Shown here in pieces: positions 39,507-63,575 of a DNA stretch of 64,000 nucleotides (within the stretch, counting starts at the first letter, position 1; each line of letters starts with the position of its first letter). Made by a program: the position numbers and the translations under genes. This stretch comes from Paenibacillus zeirhizosphaerae (GTDB taxonomy: Bacteria > Bacillota > Bacilli > Paenibacillales > Paenibacillaceae). The stretch is taken from NCBI RefSeq assembly GCF_030705605.1, contig NZ_JAPCKK010000012.1:1-64000 (forward strand), read 5' to 3'. The notes under the pieces are model-generated. The model worked only from the letters and a program-made list of their open reading frames with translations, was not told the origin of the DNA and made no database searches.

Positions 39507-42500
39507 ATGTTTGATTATAACTTGAACGATATACGTGCTCTGTGTGGAACAACAGCGTACAACAGGGGAAGAGACTACTGCGATTCAGGGCGTGTGATTT
39601 CTCTTGATCTTGAAGAAAATGAGGACTGGTCTGCTACCGACGAAAGATACAATGCTGTAGTTCAGGGGAACAAAAAATACAAAGTTACTATCGACATAGA
39701 TGACTACGGAGATGTAGAGACAAGCTGCACCTGTCCTGCTTATGGCGATTACTATTATGAAGGCTGCAAGCATATCGCGGCGGTGCTGATTGCCCTGTAC
39801 AGAAGGAACAAGGAGGCTGACAAGCAGGAGAGAAAGAGGGAAAAGGAGCGCATTGGACAGGAAGCCCTCTCCATTTGGGGACCAAACTCTATGCTGCATC
39901 AGGCGACCCGCACAACCTCCAGCAGCCGTCCGCAGACGAATCCTAAGCAACAGAAGTTATCAACGGTCAGTTACGCAGCAGCAGACCAGATGATGAAAAT
40001 ACTGGATGCACGGAAAGCGGGACATGATAGAGCAAAGACAGCCGATGCGGCCAGAAGTATTGCCGGGAAAGACACACTGCAGGTGGAATATATAGTCAAG
40101 GTCATGGATGGGTACCATGCTGAGGATTACTTAGCGCTGGAGATGAAGATCGGGGTCAAGCGAACTTACATTGTGCAGAAAATTAGAGATTTTCTGGATG
40201 CAGTGGAGGGTGAAGAAGCGTATCCTTTCACTAAGTTGTTCACCTTTGATCAGACAAGCCAGGTTTTTCTGCCGGAGGATCAGGCTATTATGGACATTCT
40301 GCTGCGTGTCAGAGCCAGTGAACGGTTGATGAAGAAAACGATAAATCCTTATATGTCCAATCACGGTACCTATGAAGATCCCAAGCGGATGTATATTCCG
40401 CCCATCATCTGGGATCAACTGCTGGACAAGCTGCTGCAAGCCAGGAATGTCATTTGGGAGGGAAAGGGCACATTGGGTACGGGTCAGCTTGAGCAGGCAG
40501 AAGGACTGCCTCCGGTGGAGTACAGCATCATGCCGGGTCAGGAGGACGGTTATTCTTTGAAAGTGGAGGGGGTAGACAGGCTCGCGCTGTTGGACAATTA
40601 CGGAGTTGTGCTGGGGTCTGGAAAATTGTTCAAAATGGAACCCCAGCACATTCGACATCTGTCCAGGCTGAAATCCACTTTGTCCTCTAGTGGGAGCAAA
40701 GAGCGGATTGAGGTGTCCGCCCGGCAGATTGAGCCTTTCCTGCAGCATACCCTGCCTGTGCTGCGTCAGCTCGGTCAGGTCAAGCTGGACAAGCGGGTGC
40801 AGCGGAAGATTCAGGAGCCTGAGCTTGTCGTCAAGGGTTTTCTGGATCAAGAGGACGATGACCTGGTGCTGCGCATCGAATTTCATTACGGGGATATTGT
40901 AATCGATCCTTTGGAGAGCACTTCCAAACAGCGCAAATCCGGAGAGACCATTCTCATTCGTGACGATGAGCGTGAACAGCTTGTGTTGAGACTGCTAGAG
41001 GCGGCGGCTATATCCTGTATCGGCGGTCGTTGGCTGGCAAGCACGGACGAGCAGATATACGATATGCTGTATCATGTACTGCCCTCGCTGGAGGAACTGG
41101 CAGAGTTATATGTGTCCCAGTCGGTGCAGCAGTTCAGGAAGAGCTCGTTGAACCAATTGAAGCTGAAGGCGGACATAACGGAGGGGCTTGACTGGCTGGA
41201 GCTCACCTTTGAGCTGGAGGGCATAGAGGCTGAAGAGATTGCTCATATTCTGAAGCATATTGTGGAGAAGAAAAATTATGTGCGCTTGCGCAATGGCGCG
41301 CTGCTGTCGCTGGAAGGGCAGGCTTATGATGAAATCCGGACAGTAGCCGAGCAACTGGACATGAAGCGTGACCAAGCGAAGCAAGGTGTGTTTCGTCTGC
41401 CGGGTCTACGGTCCTTGCAGTTGTTCCACCCCGAGGAGACGAAGAACAAAGCTGTGCGTCTGAGCAAGTCTTTGCGTCAGTTTCTGGAGCGTTTGCTTCA
41501 TCCGGAACGGACGTCATATGAGCTGCCTGATAGCCTGGAGCCGATATTGCGGGATTATCAGGTGGAGGGTTTCCAGTGGTTCAAAAACTTGTCTGCCTTT
41601 GGTTTTGGTGGTATTCTGGCTGACGATATGGGGCTGGGTAAAACCTTGCAGACGATCTCCTATATTCGCTCTGAGCTGGACGAGCGTGCAGCGGCCGCTG
41701 CGACGGGTACTAAAGCAAGCACTAAAGCAGGTGCTGAAGCAAGTATTGAAGCAAGTGCTGAAGTAGACACCGAAGCAGGGGCAGACAGCCAATATGTTGA
41801 TCCTGCAGCACAGCAGCCTGTGCTGATCATTACACCAGCTTCACTGACCTATAACTGGGAAAATGAGCTGCGCCGTTTTGCCCCGGAACTGAAGGTAGCT
41901 GTAGCCGCCGGCGACAAGGAGCAGCGCAGCAGCTTGATGGAGGACATGCAGGCACAGGCTTATGATGTGTTGATTACCTCTTACCCGCTGCTGCGCCGGG
42001 ATGCGGAATGGTATAAAGACAGGAGCTTCCCGATTCTTATTCTGGACGAGGCCCAGGCGATCAAAAACAGCGGCTCCCAGACGGCGCAACTGGTGAAGCA
42101 GCTATCCGCAAAGCATCGGTTTGCCCTAACGGGGACGCCAATCGAAAACTCGCTGCAGGAGCTGTGGTCCATCTTCGAGGCCGTTTTTCCCGCCTTGTTC
42201 CATGGGCAAACGCATCTGCAAGAACTGCCGCGTGAGCGTATTGCACGTATGATCTCACCATTTCTATTACGCAGGCTTAAGCAGGATGTACTGGAGGAGC
42301 TTCCGGACCGCATCGATACCGTGCACCGTTCGGCTCTTGCCCAAGAGCAGAAGAAGCTGTATATGGCGTATATGGCACGCTTGCGAGAAGACACCTTGAA
42401 GGATTTGGAGGAAGAAGGCTTCCAGAAGAGCCGCATGAGGATTCTGGCGGGAATTACACGTCTGCGCCAGCTCTGCTGCCATCCATCATTGTTCGTCGAA

Positions 42501-46824: not shown

Positions 46825-47677
46825 CTATCATCCAGAACGACCGTGATAAATACTCAGTATCAGCAATGTGTGACGTCCTGCAAATCGCAAGAAGTACCTT
46901 TTACTATGAAGCGAAAGAACAACCGAACGAAGACGAGCTCACGGAAGTCATTGTGGAGATCTTCCGCAAGAATTGAAAAGCCTACGGCACACGCAAGATC
47001 AAGTGCAAGCTCCATGAACGTGGACTCGTCGTGTCCAGACGTCGTATGGGTCGGATCATGAAAGAACAAGGACTCGTTTCTACGTACACAGTGGCGCAGT
47101 ATAAGCCGCATAAAGCCGCATGTAACGAAGAAGCTACAGCCAACATCCTGAATCGTGAATTTGACCAAACCGAGACCAAACGCTTCGTCGTCAGTGACCT
47201 GACCTATATGAAGGTTCAGCACCAGTGGCACTACATTTGCGTACTCGTTGACCTGTTCAATCGAGAGATGATTGGTTATCGTGCAGGTCCGAACAAGGAC
47301 GCTGCCCTGATTTCACGCGCCTTTGCTACCGTACAGGGGGATCTGCGTCAAATTCAATGGTTCCATACAGACCGTGGCAGTGAATTTAAAAATGAAAAGA
47401 TGGATGAGCTTTTGGAAACGTTTGAGATCGGTCGTTCTCTGAGCACGAAAGGCTGCCCCTATGACAACGCTGTAGCGGAAGCCACCTATAAGGTGATGAA
47501 ACCGAGTTCGTCAACCAGCAGGAATTTCAGAACCTTCGTCATTTGGAGATCGAACTATACGATTACGTCAACTGGTTTAATAAGTATCGCATTCACGGAA
47601 CACTGGGATACATGACACCTGTTCAGTACCGCGAAGAAGCCCTTAAAAAAGCTGTCCGATTTACTGTTGACAATCCA
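46821..47677 (+). pseudogene. IS3-family transposase OrfB, inactivated
   Basis: A DDE integrase domain is readable: YGTRKIK.. then FDQTETKRFVVSDLTYMKV with the first Asp, FHTDRGSEFKN with the second, and NAVAEATYKVMK with the catalytic Glu. A TGA at 46974-46976 interrupts the frame where Arg is expected, and one A is missing near 47497 just after KVMK, shifting the C-terminal part (..YRIHGTLGYMTPVQYRE) into another frame. Two independent lesions make it non-functional. Confidence 0.9.
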
Positions 47678-51168: not shown

Positions 51169-51275
51169 GGTTTACAATCTCCTTTTCTTGTAGATACGTC
51201 AATATTTTAGCATAGAATGTCGCCAAGTTGAAATTGAAAGACCATGAACTTTTATATCGTTAGGGGATGCAATTT

Positions 51276-52067
51276 GTGAGCAATTTAAGAGAGTCTTCTT
51301 TTAGAAGAAAATTGATTGTTGATTTATCCAAAAATGATTTCAACAAGAAATTCAAGGGGTCATACTTGGGTGCCCTTTGGGCGTTTGTTAACCCAGTTAT
51401 CACTATATTGTTGTACTGGTTTGTTTTTGAAATAGGCTTTAGATCTGGAAGTACACCTGAGGGATATCCCTTTGTAGTTTGGTTAATATGCGGGATGGTC
51501 CCCTGGTTCTTTTTTGCTGAGGCCTTTGCAAGTGCGACGTTAAGTTTTTCCGAGTACAGTTTTTTGGTGAAAAAGGTTGTTTTTAATATAAGCATTCTTC
51601 CTTTAGTAAAGATATTTTCAGCCTTTTTCATCCATCTATTTTTCATATGTTTTTTAATTGTAGTTCTTTTATGTTATGGTGTTACGCCGACAATCGCTTG
51701 GCTGCAATTATTTTACTACGTGTTTTGTACTTTTGCCTTATTGGTTGGGACAACATTTATAACTGCATCGATTATGCCCTTTTTTAAAGATATTGCTCAA
51801 GTAGTCTCAGTTATAGTTCAAATTGGTTTCTGGTTGACCCCGATTGTATGGTCGCTAGATATTGCACCTTTAAAGTATCATTTGCTTTTTAAATTAAATC
51901 CCTTTTATTACATTGCGGAAGGATATAGGGATGCTTTTCTGTACAACACTTGGTTTTGGAGCAAACCATTTGAAACTTTGTACTTTTGGATTATCTGCTT
52001 TGTGTTATTCACGGTAGGGGTGGCTATGTACAAGAAATTGAAGCCTCATTTTGCTGATGTATTATAA
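51276..52067 (+). CDS. wzm: ABC-2 polysaccharide export permease (Wzm-like)
   Basis: Membrane subunit of 263 residues with six helices and the ABC-2 pattern (FKGSYLGALWAFVNPVITILLYWFVF near the N-terminus; FKLNPFYYIAEGYRDAFLY near the end). It exports a complete undecaprenyl-linked polysaccharide together with the ATPase of the next gene. The likely start is GTG 51276 with AGGGGAT at suitable distance; ATG 51267 overlaps that site. First gene of the long glycan operon; 20 bases separate it from wzt. Confidence 0.9.
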   Translation: MSNLRESSFRRKLIVDLSKNDFNKKFKGSYLGALWAFVNPVITILLYWFVFEIGFRSGSTPEGYPFVVWLICGMVPWFFFAEAFASATLSFSEYSFLVKKVVFNISILPLVKIFSAFFIHLFFICFLIVVLLCYGVTPTIAWLQLFYYVFCTFALLVGTTFITASIMPFFKDIAQVVSVIVQIGFWLTPIVWSLDIAPLKYHLLFKLNPFYYIAEGYRDAFLYNTWFWSKPFETLYFWIICFVLFTVGVAMYKKLKPHFADVL

Positions 52068-52087: not shown

Positions 52088-53368
52088 ATGAACTCAATAA
52101 TCAAAGTGGAAGATGTTTCGAAAATATATAAATTATACATGAATCCGTCAGACCGTTTGAAAGAATCGTTGCATCCGCTTAAAAAAAGTTATCACAAAGA
52201 ATTTTTCGCTTTAAATAATCTTTCTTTTCATGTGAATAATGGCGAGTCTGTAGGGATAATAGGTAAGAACGGTTCTGGAAAATCAACTTTACTGAAAATA
52301 ATTACTGGTGTTCTTTCTCCAACTACTGGTAGTGTCCATGTCCAAGGGAAAATTTCGGCATTGCTAGAACTTGGAGCGGGTTTTAATCCTGATTTTTCAG
52401 GTTTGGAAAACATTTATTTAAACGGTACAATGATGGGCTTTAGCAAAGAAGAGATGGATGCAAAGTTAGATGATATAATTCAATTCGCAGATATCGGTGA
52501 TTTTATACATCAACCTGTTCGAACATATTCAAGCGGTATGTTTGTAAGATTGGCTTTTGCAGTGGCAATAAATGTTGAGCCGGAGATACTTATTGTCGAT
52601 GAAGCATTATCGGTCGGTGATATTTTCTTTCAAGCAAAATGCTTCAAAAAATTTACTGAGTTCAAAGAACAAGGGAAAACAATTCTTTTTGTTACGCATG
52701 ACATGAGTAGTATTATGAAATACTGTGATCGCGTAATTGTTATAAACGAAGGAGTTATAATAGAAGAAGGACCCCCTGGACCTATGATTGATGTTTATAA
52801 AAAAATACTGGTTGATATGTATGATAAAAATGAAGGAATTCAACCGCAAACTTTAGAAGAAATAAAAGATGAGCATGGAAGCTGGAAAGATAATCTTAGT
52901 ATTAATCCAGGGTACACGGAATACGGCAATAAACGAGCTGAAATTTTAGACTATGCCATTTTTGATCACAATAACGATCTAACAAATGTTGTTTTAAAGG
53001 GAAAAGAATTCAAAATCAAATTAAAAATCCGTTTTAATGAACCTTTGAGAGATCCTATTTTTGCTTTTAGTATTAAGGACGTTAGAGGGACTGAAATAAC
53101 TGGTACGAATACAATGTTGGAATCGGTGGATATTAAAGAAGCTGTTGCAGGGAAAATTATAGAGGTTTGTTTCACTCAAACTAATCATCTTCAAGGAGGC
53201 GATTATTTAATATCATTAGGATGTACCTGTTACGAAGGAAATGATTTTGTCGTATTTCATAGGCTTTATGATATTATGAATCTTCATGTCATATCTAATA
53301 AAAATAGTGTGGGTTTTTTTGATATGAATTCAAAAATACTTATCTCTGATTTTGAAAGGAATGGGTAG
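52088..53368 (+). CDS. wzt: Polysaccharide export ATPase with C-terminal glycan-recognition domain (Wzt-like)
   Basis: 426 residues. The ABC domain (about 1-245) has Walker A IIGKNGSGKST, signature YSSGMFVRL and Walker B ILIVDEALSVGD. It is followed by a separate beta-rich domain (about 265-426; FKIKLKIRFNEPLRDPIFAFSIKD) like the Wzt-C carbohydrate-binding module. In E. coli O8/O9a that extension binds the modified non-reducing end of the glycan and makes export depend on chain termination. Its presence predicts a terminal modification, matched by the methyltransferase and kinase genes directly downstream. Confidence 0.9.
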   Translation: MNSIIKVEDVSKIYKLYMNPSDRLKESLHPLKKSYHKEFFALNNLSFHVNNGESVGIIGKNGSGKSTLLKIITGVLSPTTGSVHVQGKISALLELGAGFNPDFSGLENIYLNGTMMGFSKEEMDAKLDDIIQFADIGDFIHQPVRTYSSGMFVRLAFAVAINVEPEILIVDEALSVGDIFFQAKCFKKFTEFKEQGKTILFVTHDMSSIMKYCDRVIVINEGVIIEEGPPGPMIDVYKKILVDMYDKNEGIQPQTLEEIKDEHGSWKDNLSINPGYTEYGNKRAEILDYAIFDHNNDLTNVVLKGKEFKIKLKIRFNEPLRDPIFAFSIKDVRGTEITGTNTMLESVDIKEAVAGKIIEVCFTQTNHLQGGDYLISLGCTCYEGNDFVVFHRLYDIMNLHVISNKNSVGFFDMNSKILISDFERNG

Positions 53369-53370
53369 GC

Positions 53371-54276
53371 ATGATTGAATATATAGGAAATGTTAAAATG
53401 AATTATAATTTTTATAATGGTCAAGACAGCTACTCGGATGGGGAAATAGAAGATGAGTTGCTGAAGGTATTACTTGATCAGAAAGATATCTCACAACTTC
53501 TGCAAGAGGATAACCGATGGCCGACATTATATCATTTTTCACCTAATCGTCATAATTTATTAGAGTGGTTTTCTTTTAAACCCGAGAGTGATGTTTTGGA
53601 AATAGGAAGTGGCTGCGGAGCTATTACAGGTTTACTCTGTGAGAAGTCTAAGAGTGTTACATGCATAGAATTGTCTAAAAAACGTTCTTTAATTAACGCT
53701 CATCGACATTTGGAAAAAAGTAATTTAGAGATTATTGTAGGGAATCTCAATGAGATTAAATTGGAAAAAAAATATGATTATGTTACTTTAATTGGAGTTC
53801 TTGAATATGCTGCGTTGTATACCGAGACTGAATCGCCTTATATATCTTTTTTGGAAAATGCAAGAAAGTATATTAAAGAGGGCGGAGTTTTAATTATAGC
53901 GATTGAGAATAAGCTTGGACTTAAATATTGGGCGGGAAGCAGAGAAGATCATACTGGCCAATTTTTTGACGGCCTTCAAAATTACCCGTCAAAACGAAAA
54001 GTTGCAACATTTTCAAATTTGGAATTGGAAGCTCTAGTTCGAGAGGCTGGTTACAAGGATGCTCAGTTTTATTATCCCTACCCTGACTATAAAATGCCGA
54101 CACAAATATATTCTGACAACAGATTGCCTGTTGTAGGTGAGTTAAAAGGCAATAGTCCTAATTATGATCAGAACAGAGTTTTATTGTTCGATGAAGAATC
54201 TGTTATGGATAATTTGATTCGAAATCAACTCTTTCCTACCTTTTCAAATTCATTTCTTGTTTTTTGTTCAAATTAA
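53371..54276 (+). CDS. SAM-dependent methyltransferase (candidate glycan-capping enzyme)
   Basis: 301 residues, class I fold: motif I VLEIGSGCGAITGL (about 72-85), acidic loop CIELSKKRS, and post-motif VTLIGVLEY. The C-terminal part has PYPDYKMPTQIYSDNRLPVVGEL, a stretch I associate with glycan-biosynthesis methyltransferases. It starts two bases after wzt, so the two are coupled. With the following kinase-like gene it covers the first two domains of WbdD, the enzyme that phosphorylates and methylates the end of E. coli O9a chains. Its acceptor here is unknown. Confidence 0.82.
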   Translation: MIEYIGNVKMNYNFYNGQDSYSDGEIEDELLKVLLDQKDISQLLQEDNRWPTLYHFSPNRHNLLEWFSFKPESDVLEIGSGCGAITGLLCEKSKSVTCIELSKKRSLINAHRHLEKSNLEIIVGNLNEIKLEKKYDYVTLIGVLEYAALYTETESPYISFLENARKYIKEGGVLIIAIENKLGLKYWAGSREDHTGQFFDGLQNYPSKRKVATFSNLELEALVREAGYKDAQFYYPYPDYKMPTQIYSDNRLPVVGELKGNSPNYDQNRVLLFDEESVMDNLIRNQLFPTFSNSFLVFCSN

Positions 54277-54295: not shown

Positions 54296-55903
54296 ATGGA
54301 GACGACCTTTGTTAAGTACAGTCGGGAGAGATCCACTGAGTATCAAATAAAAACAATGATCTTCAATGAAGACAATAAGACTTATGTATCCAAGCAGGCA
54401 CTAAACGACTCCGCAAAGGATCATGTAAACAAAGTTAATAATAATTATAAACTCCTTCACCCGGTATATAAACAAAACATACTTGCAAAACCTTTGCACT
54501 ATGAAGAAGGATCAGTGCTTTTTGAATATTTAGAAGGCATTAGTTTAGAACAGGTACTGTTAATGGCGGCTATTGAGAAAGAATTGCCGAAAATATATAC
54601 TGTTCTGGATATGTATACTGAATTTTTGGATAATGTGGCGACTGAACATTATTGTGACTTTTACAATTCGCCTGGATTCATCAGCTTTTTTGGGAACAGA
54701 GAAAGGTTAGTGGGATTAAAAAGTTTCAAAATATCGAATATTGATTTAAATTTAGATAATATAATAATGGATGAAAATGGGGAATTTAAAGTTATTGATT
54801 ATGAATGGGTACTTGACTTTTCCGTCCCATTAAATTTCATTAAATTCAGGGCGATAAATAACTTTTACTATTCTCATTTTGTAAGCATAAAGAATCTTAT
54901 TTCTATTGAAGACATATTTACTTATATAGGAATTTCTAAAGAAGAATTATCTGACTATATCGATATGTCTAATAAATTCGCCGATATGGTTGGAACCGAT
55001 AAGAATATGTTTCTCTTAGAGAAGTATCTTAAAAGAATAGTCCCATTTGAATTTGATGAGCCGCCAACTTTTATCGCACAGCTTTTTACCAGCGCAAATC
55101 AAGAGTTTATTGAAGAGGAGAGCTTACTTTACAACGTAAGCCAAACAAATCAAATAATTAACTATGATTTAACTTCGAAAGGCCAAATTAAAAATATCAG
55201 GTTTGATCCTTTACAGGGTAATGGTACAGTATGTATTAAAGATTTAAAATTAATAGATCTACAGGGTAACTCGATATCCGTTAATGAATATTATTCTAAT
55301 GCAGACTGGAATGGGAATGGTTTTTACATTTTTTTTGATAACGATCCTCAAATTTACTACGAGGTGGAGGAAAAAAAATATGCAAGTATTCAGATTTCCA
55401 TAGCATATTTTGACAACTTACCAGAAGAAATATCATATCAATTTCTTGAACAAACTCAGTGGTTTCAAAAAGAAATTGAAAAAAAGAAAAATCATCTAAA
55501 TAAATTAGAAGCCGATAGAGAACAGATTATTAATGAGAATAGTAATTTAGTTAACTTAAATAATAATTTGGCCAATCTAAATAATAATTTAGTTAATCTC
55601 AATAATAATTTAATAAATGAGCATAACAATTTAACCAAGTCCATAAGTGACATTGAAATGGAATATAAAAAGCTGCAGGAGAATTTTCGTATTAAAGAGG
55701 AAGATATTCGTACATTAAATCAAAAATTTAGTGCTGTTTCACAAGAGAATTTATCTTTAACGGAGTCCTTGTTGATTTCAGAAAAACAACGTGCTGAGTT
55801 GAATGATCTGGTTACTAATAGAGAGCAGATTATCAATGAGATGATCAGTTCTAAGTGGTGGAGGTTGGGGCTTTTTTTGAAAAAAATTGTAGGGAAACGT
55901 TAA
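54296..55903 (+). CDS. Kinase-like protein with C-terminal coiled coil (WbdD-kinase/ruler-like)
   Basis: 535 residues. The first part is an aminoglycoside-phosphotransferase/protein-kinase-like fold: hinge LFEYLEGISLE, catalytic loop IDLNLDNIIMD with Asp and Asn in place, and DFG-like IDYEW. A beta-rich middle part follows (about 285-390). From about 393 to 515 it is a coiled coil with heptads NLxNLNN repeated four times. The end, SKWWRLGLFLKKIVGKR, is an amphipathic basic-aromatic helix suited to membrane binding. Kinase, coiled coil and membrane helix in this order are the second half of WbdD. 20 bases after the methyltransferase gene. Confidence 0.75.
   Translation: METTFVKYSRERSTEYQIKTMIFNEDNKTYVSKQALNDSAKDHVNKVNNNYKLLHPVYKQNILAKPLHYEEGSVLFEYLEGISLEQVLLMAAIEKELPKIYTVLDMYTEFLDNVATEHYCDFYNSPGFISFFGNRERLVGLKSFKISNIDLNLDNIIMDENGEFKVIDYEWVLDFSVPLNFIKFRAINNFYYSHFVSIKNLISIEDIFTYIGISKEELSDYIDMSNKFADMVGTDKNMFLLEKYLKRIVPFEFDEPPTFIAQLFTSANQEFIEEESLLYNVSQTNQIINYDLTSKGQIKNIRFDPLQGNGTVCIKDLKLIDLQGNSISVNEYYSNADWNGNGFYIFFDNDPQIYYEVEEKKYASIQISIAYFDNLPEEISYQFLEQTQWFQKEIEKKKNHLNKLEADREQIINENSNLVNLNNNLANLNNNLVNLNNNLINEHNNLTKSISDIEMEYKKLQENFRIKEEDIRTLNQKFSAVSQENLSLTESLLISEKQRAELNDLVTNREQIINEMISSKWWRLGLFLKKIVGKR
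55544..55634 (+). repeat. 21-bp tandem repeats encoding the coiled-coil heptads
   Basis: Units begin at 55544, 55565, 55586 and 55607, with a partial fifth at 55628; each starts AATTT and encodes seven residues (NLVNLNN and variants). In-frame gain or loss of a unit by slippage would change the coiled coil by one heptad without breaking the gene. Confidence 0.9.
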
Positions 55904-55931: not shown

Positions 55932-58169
55932 TTGAGAGAACTTGAAGTTGTTACTTTGTTTGGATTAAACAGAACAGAGGAAGAGTGGGAGAGTACTAGT
56001 AATGACCCTCAAATGTACTTTCAGGGGGGGGTTAAGAAAGGCTGGTATAGAATAAAGTGTGAGGGAACCTCTGAATCATTGAGGTATCTTAAACTCTATG
56101 TTGATTACGGTGCAGGTTTTAATGAAGACGACTCTTTTATAATTGGAAAATTGGATCGACTTCAATCCAGTTTTCGGCCAGTTTACTTTAAAAAGGATGT
56201 ATTATCTCTGCGTTTAGATCCTGGGGATTCCCCAGGAGTGTTTTACATACAGCGAATTGGTATAGAAAAGGTTGGATCTTTATCTATACTTAATCAGGCA
56301 ATTCAGAGTTACAAAGAAATAAACCAGGGTAATAATCAAAGTTTATTTTTGCATGCACTAAAAAAAATGAGGCAACACGGTCTTAGATGGTTGTGGAATC
56401 GGGCTGTCACGCTTATGCTTAATCGGCCAGATCACCAGATTGGGAAGTTTGAGCCATACGCTTATAGTGAAGAGGGGAAAATTCCGAATTTCCATTCTGA
56501 TAATAAACCGCTATTTACAATTATTATTCCGATTTATGAGTACAATCTCACTTACCTATCTAATTGTTTAACGTATTTAAAGAACCAATCATATACGAAT
56601 TATGAAATAATCTTGATTAGTAGAGAGAGTATAGATAAACACACCTTGTCAGAATTCGTCTCTTCCAACAAAATTAATTGTATAACAACTTCCAAGAACA
56701 CATTGTTGGGGATGATTCAAGAGGCGAGTAATTTTGTGGGTGGGGATTACATTACTGTTCTCGAACAGGAAGATTTTATTTCAGTAAATACCTTGCACGC
56801 TGCTGCGTTAAATACGACAGAAGATGTAGATTTGATATTTACTAATGAAGATAGGTTCCTTAATAATGGAGATCATTTTGCACCTTTTTATAAGGAAGAG
56901 TTTTTGCGGCAAGATAGATTGACAGCAAAGATCGTGGGTTCGTTTTTTGCCGCAAGAACAGATTTATTTAAAGAACTCATTCTGCTGGACTTCAATGATT
57001 ACGAGGACTTTACAGATGCTTTGGTTGAAAAGGCATTGAATATAAAACATATTACAAAATTCTATTATCATCGAAGAGTGGCGGAATCCGTTTGGCCTGA
57101 ATATAAAGATAATAAAACAGATATTGTTCCTTTTTATTTGCCGCAATTTCACGCGATTCCTGAGAATGATAAATGGTGGGGGAAAGGGTTTACGGAATGG
57201 ACCAATGTGACAAAAGCTAAACCTTTGTTCAAAGATCATTACCAACCGCACGTTCCCTCAGATTTAGGATACTATAATCTCGTAGAGGATAATGACATTC
57301 AACAAAGACAAGCAGAACTAGCTAAGCAGTACGGCGTAACGGGATTTTGCTATTATTATTACTGGTTTGATGGTAAGCGTTTGTTGGAAAAACCTTTAAA
57401 CGCTTTTCTGGAAAACAAGGATATAGATATTCCTTTTTGTGTTTGTTGGGCAAATGAAAGCTGGACAAGGCGCTGGGATGGACAAGAAAAAGAAATGCTT
57501 ATGAAACAAGTTCATGATGAGGATTCAGATGCCAGATTTATTGAAGAGATGATCCCTGTTCTTCAGGATGAAAGGTACATTCGAATTAATGGAAAGGATC
57601 CCGTGCTTCTTATTTATAGAGCGGAGTTGTTTCCTAATTTAAAGGCAACTGTTCAAGCGTGGAAAGCAAGATGCAGAGAGGCAGGTATTCCCAATCTGCA
57701 CGTTTGTATGGTACAGTCATTTGGACAAGTAGATCCAACTGTTTATGGATGTGATTCTGCGGTAGAGTTTCCACCTCATGGGGTTTATGCTAATGAAATC
57801 TCAAAAACTATGGAGCAACTGGCTCCCGATTTTTCCGGGAATATATATGACTACAGAGAAGTAGTTGACCGTGCTCTGCAGAAAAAAAGTGCAGGTGATT
57901 ATACTTGGTTTAGAGGGGCAATGCTGAGCTGGGATAATACAGCAAGAAGAAAAAGTGCAGCGAATATTTTTCATTACGCTGATCCTGTTGAATATGAAAA
58001 GTGGTTGGTTGGCTTAGTTGATTATACCAGACGGTTCAACAAAGACTCGCATCAAATGATTTTTGTGAATGCTTGGAACGAGTGGGCAGAGGGTACGCAC
58101 TTAGAACCTGATCAAAAATATGGTAAGCAGTATTTAGAAGTAACTCATAAAGCATCTAAGGTGCGATAA
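55932..58169 (+). CDS. Glycosyltransferase fused to a WbsX / GH99-like domain
   Basis: 745 residues. After an N-terminal region of about 190 residues comes a GT2-like domain (about 195-395; FTIIIPIYEYNLTYLSNCL) whose acidic motif is degenerate (LEQED). Then the WbsX domain (about 398-740) starts with VPFYLPQFHAIPENDKWWGKGFTEWTNV and contains CVCWANESWTRRWDG and VNAWNEWAEGTHLEPD. WbsX/GH99-like modules occur in O-antigen and S-layer glycan clusters and probably act as glycan-processing or transfer enzymes. The start is TTG 55932 with AAGGAATGA upstream. Confidence 0.85.
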   Translation: MRELEVVTLFGLNRTEEEWESTSNDPQMYFQGGVKKGWYRIKCEGTSESLRYLKLYVDYGAGFNEDDSFIIGKLDRLQSSFRPVYFKKDVLSLRLDPGDSPGVFYIQRIGIEKVGSLSILNQAIQSYKEINQGNNQSLFLHALKKMRQHGLRWLWNRAVTLMLNRPDHQIGKFEPYAYSEEGKIPNFHSDNKPLFTIIIPIYEYNLTYLSNCLTYLKNQSYTNYEIILISRESIDKHTLSEFVSSNKINCITTSKNTLLGMIQEASNFVGGDYITVLEQEDFISVNTLHAAALNTTEDVDLIFTNEDRFLNNGDHFAPFYKEEFLRQDRLTAKIVGSFFAARTDLFKELILLDFNDYEDFTDALVEKALNIKHITKFYYHRRVAESVWPEYKDNKTDIVPFYLPQFHAIPENDKWWGKGFTEWTNVTKAKPLFKDHYQPHVPSDLGYYNLVEDNDIQQRQAELAKQYGVTGFCYYYYWFDGKRLLEKPLNAFLENKDIDIPFCVCWANESWTRRWDGQEKEMLMKQVHDEDSDARFIEEMIPVLQDERYIRINGKDPVLLIYRAELFPNLKATVQAWKARCREAGIPNLHVCMVQSFGQVDPTVYGCDSAVEFPPHGVYANEISKTMEQLAPDFSGNIYDYREVVDRALQKKSAGDYTWFRGAMLSWDNTARRKSAANIFHYADPVEYEKWLVGLVDYTRRFNKDSHQMIFVNAWNEWAEGTHLEPDQKYGKQYLEVTHKASKVR

Positions 58170-58182
58170 TTGAGGTGATAAG

Positions 58183-59136
58183 ATGAAGAGTGGTAGTACT
58201 CCCTTAGTTAGTGTCATCGTACCTTCTTATAACTATGAACACTATATTAAAGAGGCTTTAAACTCTATACTCGAACAGACGTATGACGAGTTGGAGTTAG
58301 TTATTGTTGATGATAATTCAAAAGATAACAGTTGTCGTATTGTAGAAGAGCTTATTTCAACTCAGGCATATTTAGAGAAGTTTAGGAGTCGTATAAAATT
58401 CATTAGACACGATCATAATCAAGGTGCACATAATTCAATAAACCAGGGGATTCGCTCGTCTCATGGTGATTATGTAACTATACTAAATGCGGATGACTTA
58501 TTTCAGTCTAACCGTATTGAGGAAATGATTGGACAAATGCTCAGGGGTGATGCAGAATTTGCATTTTCGAAGATTAAAGTGATTGATGCAAACGGGGGAA
58601 ATATAAGTTCAACTTCTGATCAGGCTAAAAATTTCATTCATACTCAAGAATCTATTTTAAATTTCCCAAGTGTCGGCTGGTCTTTAATACCTCACAACAC
58701 TGCTATATCAACAGGAAATATGGTGTTCAGTAGAAAAATTTTTGAAAAATTGCATGGATTTCGAAATCTGAAATATTGTCATGATTGGGATTTTATTTTA
58801 AGAAGTGTTATCCTAACCGAGCCGATTTATGTCGAGAATACTTTTTATTCCTACCGCTTACATGGAAATAACACTTTTTTATCTTTAAGTGATGTGGTAG
58901 ACAAAGAAGTAAAAACGGTTCTAGGATCTTATTTCAAATTATGTCGTAAAACGAACGTTCCAAATAAGTTGGCACCATCTCCTAATAATTGGCCAAAACA
59001 ATTTTTTGAAGTTCTGAAAAATAGCCATATTATAAAGTTTTGGTACTATTCCAAATCTTTTTCGAATTTTATTTTACAGTTTAGGCAAAACCAATTAGAC
59101 AATAAAGATAGAAATACCAATAAAAATATATGTTGA
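58183..59136 (+). CDS. Family 2 glycosyltransferase
   Basis: 317-residue GT-A enzyme with VSVIVPSYNYEHYIKEALNSI at the N-terminus, the nucleotide-sugar motif VDDNSKDNS, and LNADDLF as the metal-binding DxD-type site. A conserved GGDW-like segment reads CHDWDFILR. It adds one sugar of the repeat, donor unknown; with rmlA and rmlC next to it, dTDP-rhamnose is a candidate. 14 bases after the preceding gene, in the same operon. Confidence 0.9.
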   Translation: MKSGSTPLVSVIVPSYNYEHYIKEALNSILEQTYDELELVIVDDNSKDNSCRIVEELISTQAYLEKFRSRIKFIRHDHNQGAHNSINQGIRSSHGDYVTILNADDLFQSNRIEEMIGQMLRGDAEFAFSKIKVIDANGGNISSTSDQAKNFIHTQESILNFPSVGWSLIPHNTAISTGNMVFSRKIFEKLHGFRNLKYCHDWDFILRSVILTEPIYVENTFYSYRLHGNNTFLSLSDVVDKEVKTVLGSYFKLCRKTNVPNKLAPSPNNWPKQFFEVLKNSHIIKFWYYSKSFSNFILQFRQNQLDNKDRNTNKNIC

Positions 59137-59152
59137 TTTTCAGGAGGGTATT

Positions 59153-59896
59153 ATGAAAGGTATAATTTTAGCTGGAGGAACTGGAACTAGACTATATCCA
59201 TTAACGAAAGTAACAAATAAGCATTTGTTGCCTGTGGGGAAATATCCAATGATTTTTCACGCTGTTCATAAATTAAAGCAAGCTGCTATTCAAGATATAC
59301 TTATTGTGACCGGTAAAGACCATATGGGCGATGTGGTTAACCTATTAGGAAGTGGATCTGAAATGGGAGTAAGCTTTACTTACAAAGTTCAGGATGAAGC
59401 GGGAGGAATTGCCCAAGCTCTGGATTTGGCTGAACAATTTGTAGGGGAAGACCAAATGGTTGTTATTTTAGGGGATAATGTATTTGTGGATGACATATCA
59501 CCATATGTTGAAAATTTCCGAAAACAAGAGGCAGGGGCTAAACTGCTTCTGCAACAGGTAGAGGATCCAAAACGCTTTGGGGTAGCTGAACTACTTGGAG
59601 AACGTATTGTTTCTATAGAAGAAAAGCCTCAGAATCCTAAGAGCAATTATGCGGTAACCGGTATTTATATGTTTGATCATAAGGTTTTTGAAATTATTAA
59701 GACCCTGAAGCCTTCAGCAAGAGGCGAGTTAGAAATCACCGATGTCAATAATGAATACATTAATAAAGGTGAATTAAGTTTTGATATTTTGCAAGGCTGG
59801 TGGACCGATGCAGGCACCCACGTTTCTCTTGCGAAAGCCAATGACCTTTCTAAAGATATAATATTTAGTGAAGAGTTTGGGAAATTAAAAATATAG
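59153..59896 (+). CDS. rmlA: Glucose-1-phosphate thymidylyltransferase
   Basis: First enzyme of dTDP-L-rhamnose synthesis, 247 residues, the short form found in Gram-positives. Signature GGTGTRLYPLTKVTNKHLLPVG, then LGDNVFVDD with the metal-binding Asp and VEDPKRFGVAE. rmlB and rmlD are not in the window; they may lie to the right. Its stop codon overlaps the ribosome site of rmlC. Confidence 0.93.
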   Translation: MKGIILAGGTGTRLYPLTKVTNKHLLPVGKYPMIFHAVHKLKQAAIQDILIVTGKDHMGDVVNLLGSGSEMGVSFTYKVQDEAGGIAQALDLAEQFVGEDQMVVILGDNVFVDDISPYVENFRKQEAGAKLLLQQVEDPKRFGVAELLGERIVSIEEKPQNPKSNYAVTGIYMFDHKVFEIIKTLKPSARGELEITDVNNEYINKGELSFDILQGWWTDAGTHVSLAKANDLSKDIIFSEEFGKLKI

Positions 59897-59909
59897 GGAG
59901 CGTGTGAAA

Positions 59910-60455
59910 ATGAAGATAACTGAATTGAAGTTGAAAGATGCGCTGCTAATTGAACCGGTGGTACATGGAGACCACCGAGGCTTCTTTATGGAAAGTTATA
60001 ATCAATTGGAGATGGATTCGCTAGGAATAAACTATAATTTTATACAGGATAATCAGTCTCTATCGGCTGATCCTGGAGTTATTCGTGGACTTCATTATCA
60101 ATTAAATCCCAAAGCGCAGACGAAACTAATACGTGTTATTTCTGGAGCTATTTATGATGTTGTTGTAGATATTCGGCGAGATTCAAGCACTTTTGGAGAG
60201 TGGGTTGGTGTAATTTTAAGTCAATATAATAAGAGACAGCTATTGGTCCCAAAGGGCTTTGCACACGGGTTTTGCACATTAACTCCAAATACTGAGGTTT
60301 TATATAAAGTGGATGAATATTATTCTCCTGAGCATGATAGAGGTATCTTATGGAATGACCCGGATTTAAGTATCGATTGGCCAGTTACACAACCGGTACT
60401 ATCTGATAAAGATCGAAATCATCCTGTACTGAAAAATGCCGAATGTAATTTTTAG
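59910..60455 (+). CDS. rmlC: dTDP-4-dehydrorhamnose 3,5-epimerase
   Basis: Cupin-fold epimerase of 181 residues, third step of dTDP-rhamnose synthesis. Conserved GDHRGFFMESYN, the catalytic His in RGLHYQLNPKAQTKLIRV, FAHGFCTL, and the C-terminal WNDPDLSIDWP. ATG 59910 fits the ribosome site GGGAG at 59896-59900 better than GTG 59904. It shows that rhamnose is part of the polymer. Confidence 0.94.
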   Translation: MKITELKLKDALLIEPVVHGDHRGFFMESYNQLEMDSLGINYNFIQDNQSLSADPGVIRGLHYQLNPKAQTKLIRVISGAIYDVVVDIRRDSSTFGEWVGVILSQYNKRQLLVPKGFAHGFCTLTPNTEVLYKVDEYYSPEHDRGILWNDPDLSIDWPVTQPVLSDKDRNHPVLKNAECNF

Positions 60456-60479
60456 TGAAATAATTTTATTTGTTAGTAA

Positions 60480-62612
<2,133 letters not shown>

Positions 62613-62630
62613 GAAGTTGAGGAGTTTATT

Positions 62631-63575
62631 ATGAATTTTAAAATTTCTTTAGTAGTTCCGATGTATAATGAGTCGGATAATATAGGTTACTTCTATGAAC
62701 GAATCACTAGTGTGTTGACAGATTATATTTTTGAAATAATATGCATAAACGACGGAAGCAAAGATTCTACCTTAAATAAACTAAACGAACTTGCTAGTAA
62801 GGACAAAAGAGTTAAAGTTATTGATTTATCACGAAATTTTGGCAAAGAAGTAGCTATGAGTGCGGGGCTCAAATACGCCCAAGGAGATATCATCATTCCA
62901 ATTGATGCTGATTTACAAGATCCTCCCGAGTTAATACCAGACATGATAGAAAAATGGCAAGAAGGATATGATGTCGTTTATGCAACAAGAATTATTAGAG
63001 AAGGGGAAACCTTTTTTAAGAAAGCTACGGCCAGCATCTTCTATAAATTTATTAGAAAAATCACCAAAATTGACATTCCGGCTGATACTGGGGATTTTCG
63101 TCTTATGTCGAGGCAAGTAGTTGACGCGGTTAACGCATTACCAGAGAGTCACAGATTCATGAAGGGTTTATTTAGTTGGGTAGGATTTCGTCAGATTAGT
63201 ATCCCTTATCAACGCGAACCCAGATTTGCAGGAAAAACAAATTTCAATTATTGGAAACTTTGGAATTTTGCAATTGAAGGGATTACTTCATTTAGTTTTG
63301 CCCCTCTTCAAATTTCCATGTATATGGGTTTTTTAGTCTCTATTGCTGCTTTAATTTACGCTTTCTACTTAGTGGTAGACACATTATTGTTTGGTAACTC
63401 AGTGCCAGGTTATCCTTCTCTAATGGTTGCGATCTTGTTTTTTGGGGGTGTGCAGTTAATAACATTGGGAGTAATCGGAGAGTATGTCGGCCGGATTTAC
63501 GGTGAAACTAAACGACGGCCCTTATTTTTGGTTAGGGAAACTATTAATATCGAACTATCTGAACAAGATAAATAA
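62631..63575 (+). CDS. gtrB: Polyprenyl-phosphate glycosyltransferase (GtrB/DPM1-like)
   Basis: 314 residues: a GT2 catalytic domain (VVPMYNESDNIGYFYERI; DADLQDPPELIP with the DxD metal site; DTGDFRLMSRQVV) and two C-terminal membrane helices. It transfers a sugar, typically glucose from UDP-glucose, to undecaprenyl phosphate on the inner face of the membrane. UDP-glucose could come from galU in the same region. 18 bases after the DUF6056-like gene. Confidence 0.92.
   Translation: MNFKISLVVPMYNESDNIGYFYERITSVLTDYIFEIICINDGSKDSTLNKLNELASKDKRVKVIDLSRNFGKEVAMSAGLKYAQGDIIIPIDADLQDPPELIPDMIEKWQEGYDVVYATRIIREGETFFKKATASIFYKFIRKITKIDIPADTGDFRLMSRQVVDAVNALPESHRFMKGLFSWVGFRQISIPYQREPRFAGKTNFNYWKLWNFAIEGITSFSFAPLQISMYMGFLVSIAALIYAFYLVVDTLLFGNSVPGYPSLMVAILFFGGVQLITLGVIGEYVGRIYGETKRRPLFLVRETINIELSEQDK

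Follow-up and report, generated by a model that had tools for sequence, protein, structure and literature searches.

Introduction

The coiled coil of WbdD, the chain terminator of Escherichia coli O9a, is reported to set the length of the O antigen (PMC5082667, PMC11231755), a point on which the preliminary description of the DNA studied here relied correctly. WbdD is described as a single three-domain polypeptide that lacks a beta domain (PMC3482155). The terminator of Klebsiella pneumoniae O7, ORF6(O7), contains a kinase that was likened to AmiN and whose activity was lost when its Asp was changed (PMC11231755). According to one review, ABC transporter-dependent capsules are described only, or primarily, in Gram-negatives (PMC12220298).

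Here we analyzed a window of 64,000 nucleotides from Paenibacillus zeirhizosphaerae (contig NZ_JAPCKK010000012.1, positions 1 to 64,000), in which a predicted glycan chain terminator, differing from WbdD in its layout, carries an array of 21-bp repeats in its coiled coil. We read this array as the trace of an in-frame lengthening of the coil by heptad steps and not as a contingency locus, and we give this reading a probability of roughly 0.6.

Gene neighborhood and glycan cluster

The genes of the glycan cluster described here lie on the forward strand, and their order is wzm, wzt, methyltransferase, kinase-coil protein, and glycosyltransferase. Wzm, an ABC-2 transporter permease (51267–52067, Pfam PF01061), is followed by Wzt with a C-terminal Wzt_C domain (52088–53368, PF14524, 1.4e-38) and by a SAM-dependent methyltransferase of 301 aa on a separate gene (53371–54276, Pfam Methyltransf_12). 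The kinase-coil protein (54296–55903) precedes a glycosyltransferase with GT2 and WbsX domains (55932–58169, PF00535 and PF14307). The remaining glycan cluster in the window (58183–63575) comprises ORFs for a GT2 protein, an RmlA-like and an RmlC-like protein, a DUF6056 protein, and a second GT2 protein, with Pfam assignments for those starting at 58183, 60513, and 62631. The names of the putative RmlA-like and RmlC-like proteins come from our reading of their sequences. The DUF6056 protein (60513–62612) is also present in 2 of the 78 related loci described below, within the DNA examined.

The G+C content is 0.50–0.57 in the first 44 kb of the window, 0.40–0.43 at 44–52 kb, and 0.32–0.37 at 52–64 kb, and an integrase-core (rve) ORF is found at 47031–47615. 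Given the drop in G+C and the rve ORF, we consider the glycan cluster a probable acquired island, in line with what is described for clusters of S-layer glycans (PMC2943079). A second coding tandem repeat, of 24 or 12 bp, lies at 41706–41763 within a SNF2-helicase gene.

Domains and predicted fold of the host protein

From its ORF and its relatives, the 535-aa protein carrying the array is predicted to be a chain terminator composed of a kinase, a beta domain, and a coil. The kinase domain (aa 1–232, 54296–54991) matched the aminoglycoside phosphotransferase/choline kinase fold with VIA-align, the matches including APH(3')-Ia (4fev_C, Z 14.7, 3.6 Å over 202 residues) and the choline kinase LicA (4r77_B, Z 13.1). 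Three residues are invariant among the 14 aligned sequences and would have counterparts in this fold: D150 as its catalytic Asp, N155 as the Asn that binds Mg, and D168 as its second Asp. The following domain (aa 259–372, 55070–55411; pLDDT 89.6 when modeled alone with AlphaFold2) is all-beta and possibly a carbohydrate-binding module; the best match in a fold search reached only Z 6.5, and none was clear.

The AlphaFold2 model of the full protein was built on the 14 aligned sequences and has a mean pLDDT of 82.8. In this model, residues 377–518 (55424–55849) form one continuous helix of 142 residues with the array units within it. Given a helix rise of 0.15 nm per residue, this coil would be ~21 nm long. 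C-terminal to the array, hydrophobic residues occupy heptad positions 1 and 5, position 5 being part of the core there. A last helix (aa 521–534, 55856–55897, low confidence) starts at a WW motif and, by analogy with the WbdD literature, presumably contacts the membrane or the polymerase. The preliminary description had placed the repeat units inside a coiled coil, which agrees with the predicted helix at residues 377–518. A long coil after the catalytic domain and the proximity of Wzm and of a Wzt with a C-terminal binding domain are features shared with coiled-coil glycan chain terminators. By its layout, the protein is predicted to be a glycan chain terminator of the O7 ORF6 type whose methyltransferase is carried by a separate gene.

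A heptad-coding array in the predicted coiled coil

Tandem Repeats Finder returned a 21-bp period at 55530–55633 (5.0 copies, 74% matches), which a 42-bp period outscored at the same array (113 vs 87), and a direct-repeat search found four 42-nt copies at 21-nt spacing, three of them with 64–76% identity to the first. The array is real, and each 21-bp unit encodes one heptad. Defined by Tandem Repeats Finder, the in-frame units, and amino-acid shuffles, it spans 55526–55630 and consists of u0 (IINENSN, 55526–55546), u1 (LVNLNNN, 55547–55567), u2 (LANLNNN, 55568–55588), u3 (LVNLNNN, 55589–55609), and u4 (LINEHNN, 55610–55630). The claim that tandem 21-bp units encode one heptad each is thereby confirmed, and the originally proposed boundaries (55544–55634) were right within a few bases.

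Three of the five units are very similar and two are looser: u1 and u3 are identical at 7/7 residues, and u2 is one residue off from both. The best run of neighboring heptad matches was reached in 0 of 20,000 shuffles preserving the composition of each heptad position; with the same shuffles, a weaker statistic, the total over all heptad neighbors, gave P = 0.011.

These shuffles bear on whether a duplication took place at all. The units could have become alike by drift and convergence in a low-complexity, AT-rich coding stretch with AAT-rich codons, the heptad pattern being selected. The low GC of the array (0.17 vs 0.31 for the whole gene) fits this account, as does the fact that the protein sequence and codon usage suffice to explain the DNA identity between units (see below). 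We nevertheless consider it unlikely, as the agreement of u1, u2, and u3 goes beyond what shuffling within heptad columns produces, the coil exceeds that of the nearest relative found by exactly 28 aa, and fresh 21- and 42-bp duplications are present in three relatives (L005, L016, and L161).

The array is also rich in Asn (15/28 residues) and differs from the coil after it in having Leu at heptad position 4 and no hydrophobic residue at position 5. The Asn-rich heptads might therefore form a hinge, or a special segment setting the oligomer, rather than added length; over the first half of the coil, the model confidence is lowest at the array and falls to 55 at residues 411–420. This alternative is improbable, since AlphaFold2 predicts a single continuous helix and since relatives show whole-heptad length steps at other sequences. 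A simple extension of a ruler by the Asn-rich units is likely, though these units may make the core of the coil weaker or displace it.

Age of the array at the DNA level

Recent copies should agree at synonymous sites beyond chance. We kept the protein constant and resampled its codons according to their frequencies in ten cluster genes. The pairwise DNA identity among u1–u3 is 76–86%, and over all their pairs it is 0.810 where 0.755 is expected (P = 0.17); the same test gave P = 0.19 for u1–u4 and P = 0.07 for u0–u4. No excess of identity at synonymous sites was thus found in any of these three unit sets. The longest exact match at a lag of 21, 42, or 63 in the array is 13 nt (P = 0.27). Array units do not agree as recent copies should, so the array is either old or shaped by selection on the protein; we read it as old because the amino-acid repetition exceeds the shuffles, yet no synonymous excess accompanies it.

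Relatives and their loci

An earlier scan of genome contigs had found no relative. The alignment-based scan of the contigs of named genomes, in collections with one genome per species, gave 107 relatives, from which 80 loci were kept (7 of the 80 being duplicate proteins from the other genome set). Of these loci, 78 matched the kinase part by BLAST, and among the 78, a methyltransferase was found in 73, Wzt in 67, and Wzm in 55. In 34 of the 78, the methyltransferase is fused to the kinase protein. L016, for instance, is one fused protein whose methyltransferase part (aa 4–295) is 44% identical to the separate methyltransferase of the window and whose kinase-beta-coil part (aa 309–828) is 23% identical to the window protein. 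From these alignments, the gene at 53371–54276 would correspond to the N-terminus of the fused relatives.

The relatives come mostly from Gram-positive genera. The protein core of L007, whose genome belongs to the family of the window, is also that of the Paenibacillus oralis contig L036, from which the family would be that of Paenibacillus. Kinase relatives were also found in contigs labeled Alistipes, Deltaproteobacteria, and Epsilonproteobacteria (L072, L088, and L100, from metagenome bins), so that the family is not only Gram-positive.

Coil length across relatives

To compare coils, we measured the distance to the WW motif from a conserved Tyr in the last beta strand, which could be anchored in 7 of the 14 aligned proteins, those sharing WW. 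This distance is 150 residues in the window protein, 122 in L002, 112 in L007, 94 in L008 and L010, and 119 in L009 and L011. From the window protein to L002, and again from L002 to L008, the distance drops by exactly 28 residues. L007 and L009 differ from each other by 7, and this pair is offset by 3 or 4 from the group formed by the window protein, L002, and L008; the window coil exceeds that of L007 by 38 and that of L009 by 31, neither of them a multiple of 7, which counts against the heptad-step reading. For five random, independent lengths, the probability of a grouping of this kind is 217/16,807 (~0.013), as calculated after the pattern was seen.

Compared with L002, the nearest relative found (~50% identical), the window coil is 28 aa, or exactly four heptads, longer. 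The best-scoring single gap against L002 covers u0–u3 (55526–55609, 84 bp or 28 aa), with a one-gap alignment score of 173 and neighboring placements at 171–172. Shuffled coils placed their best 28-residue gap near the array in 639 of 2000 cases, so the placement at the array is by itself not significant; since shuffles often hit the same neighborhood, it is the length and not the place of the gap that serves as evidence.

Coils, delimited by a no-proline rule, were comparable in 41 of 205 related pairs; the other 164 were dropped for a coil below 70 residues in one or both members or for fewer than 50 shared coil columns. Among the dropped pairs that were listed, L051/L056 (one 7-residue coil indel) fits the heptad reading, and L064/L065 (an indel of 3), L070/L107 (two of 5), and L110/L112 (one of 1) go against it. 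At 60% identity or more, 12 of 20 pairs showed no net coil change. In these 20 pairs, 8 of the 14 coil indels of at least 2 aa are 7, 14, or 21 residues long, five are 3 or 4, and one is 6, and 0/16 indels outside the coil are multiples of 7. At 48–60% identity (21 pairs), where alignments are less trusted, the multiples of 7 are 9/58 inside and 0/15 outside the coil. As compared pairs share members, these indel counts are not independent. Of the four closest species pairs (89–92% identity), three have equal coil lengths and one shows a 1-residue indel, while the fused terminators L019 and L022 (88% identity) differ by one 14-residue coil insertion. Judged from these alignments, coil length in the terminator family often appears to change by whole heptads.

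Tandem repeats in relatives

A tandem array score of at least 6 was found in 11 of 106 distinct family proteins, and the period was a multiple of 7 in 10 of these 11. L067 is the exception to the heptad rule: close to its C-terminus (aa 391–408), the motif NEKYM recurs with a period of 5 residues (15 bp). L005, which belongs to the same genus as the window and combines a methyltransferase, a beta domain, and a coil, has 3.5 copies of a 21-bp unit encoding TQQLDER (positions 2231–2303 of its locus, 94% matches), with identical codons at 13/14 sites (P = 0.0004) and neighboring units 98% identical. Synonymous excess was also detected in the 42-bp repeat of L016 (0 of 3000 resamplings) and in the 21-bp repeat of L161 (P = 0.0033). 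It reached a nominal P < 0.05 in 6 of the 11 arrays, with L005 and L016 alone surviving correction for 11 tests. These sequences indicate that tandem heptad duplication does happen in the terminator family, and L005 appears to be the best candidate for current heptad variation.

SMC proteins served as a weak control, with loci from 30 of 60 genomes representing one conserved family of one genus. None scored above 6, and 12/30 reached 6; in ten of these, the score came from a single motif at lag 21, and in the other two, the lag was 52. At a score of at least 6, arrays are therefore rarer in terminators (11/106) than in SMC (12/30), whereas at 7 or more, the counts are 10/106 and 0/30. A period that is a multiple of the heptad is thus common in coils as such and no special mark of terminators.

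Is the array still varying?

The preliminary description had proposed slipped-strand mispairing of the units as a simple way to vary the chain length. As a contingency locus, the array would slip at useful rates, and chain lengths would differ within one population. Its units are indeed in frame and in tandem, and precedents exist: in-frame repeats of E. coli tolA vary, with RecA-dependent contractions at 6.9e-5 (PMC3477136), perfect heptad-coding repeats of NeuO slip (PMC3046976), and L005, within the same genus, has nearly identical neighboring units. In the window, on the other hand, u1–u3 have diverged, show no synonymous excess, and share no exact match longer than 13 nt, and most close pairs of relatives keep their coil length. 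As a proxy for strain variation in the window species, we took the span of wbdD in E. coli. Coverage was 80% or more in 210 genomes, and each of the 48 full-length rows listed from these had the same span, 2127 bp, at identities down to 90%. We therefore set aside active slippage as the leading reading, and a contingency locus seems very unlikely here.

Proposed origin and role of the array

The in-frame, heptad-step lengthening of the coil, our preferred reading, would have proceeded by tandem duplication, with mainly those new copies surviving that kept the heptad register and with the copies having since diverged to background level. The methyltransferase (53371) and the kinase (54296) would act jointly, adding a methyl-phosphate cap to the non-reducing end of a lipid-linked glycan. 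The coil would keep the kinase at a distance from the membrane-bound polymerase, and a chain would be capped only once it is long enough to reach the kinase; the C-terminal domain of Wzt would recognize the cap and export the chain. Four extra heptads, ~4.2 nm of the ~21 nm coil, would raise the minimum length at which a chain is capped. The sequences and models show the array, the architecture, the 28 extra residues relative to L002, and the preference for whole heptads among coil indels of close pairs; from these we infer that the enzymes are active, that the coil acts as a ruler, that the units arose by duplication, and in which direction the length changed.

More tentatively, ABC-exported glycans of Gram-positives may owe their chain length to a quantized coiled-coil ruler, with recurrent tandem duplication driving its evolution in heptad steps. 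If so, the modal glycan length would be predictable from the coil length read in the genome, and members with fresh 21- or 42-bp repeats (L005, L016, and L161) may still vary within their species. A kinase-coil protein beside wzt would be a candidate terminator in related Gram-positive clusters, and the natural relatives, whose coil distances range from 94 to 150 residues, would readily allow the two lengths, of coil and of glycan, to be compared.

Comparison with known systems

Two known repeat systems resemble the array. Like the window protein, NeuO of E. coli K1 is a glycan-modifying enzyme with a heptad-coding DNA repeat, and its copy number varies; unlike the array, its repeats are perfect 7-bp units that switch the frame, it has 1–31 heptads, and its authors exclude a triple coiled coil (PMC3046976). 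The tolA gene of E. coli also contains an in-frame coding repeat that alters protein length and varies among strains, with units of 15 bp in 8–16 copies and in a protein of different function (PMC3477136).

WsaE and the slg S-layer glycan clusters share with the window wzm/wzt upstream, rml genes downstream, low G+C, and a termination based on a methyltransferase, but WsaE is a methyltransferase plus two GTs, for which we found no kinase described (PMC2943079), whereas the window has a predicted one.

WbdD of E. coli O9a shares with the window system the kinase and methyltransferase functions, a long coil, a C-terminal region, and the gene order wzm-wzt-terminator-glycosyltransferase. The comparison drawn in the preliminary description holds as a functional analogy. 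Homology was rejected by BLASTP, which gave no significant match to WbdD of E. coli HS for either the window protein or its methyltransferase; that WbdD does not appear in the fold matches listed does not speak against a relationship. No 21-bp repeat was detected in E. coli HS wbdD, where Tandem Repeats Finder reports only a 15-bp, 2.2-copy repeat, and the limited library searched returned no article on the WbdD coiled coil together with a tandem repeat.

The layout of the O7 terminator fits better. ORF6(O7) (MN173773) has the same order of methyltransferase, APH-like kinase, beta/CBM domain, and coiled coil, and its cluster also contains wzm, wzt, and rml genes (PMC11231755). The two are likened by layout and not by sequence. 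Unlike ORF6(O7) as described in PMC11231755, the window protein lacks GT modules after its coil, its methyltransferase is encoded separately, and its relatives are mostly Gram-positive. L016 and other fused relatives form a bridge between these layouts.
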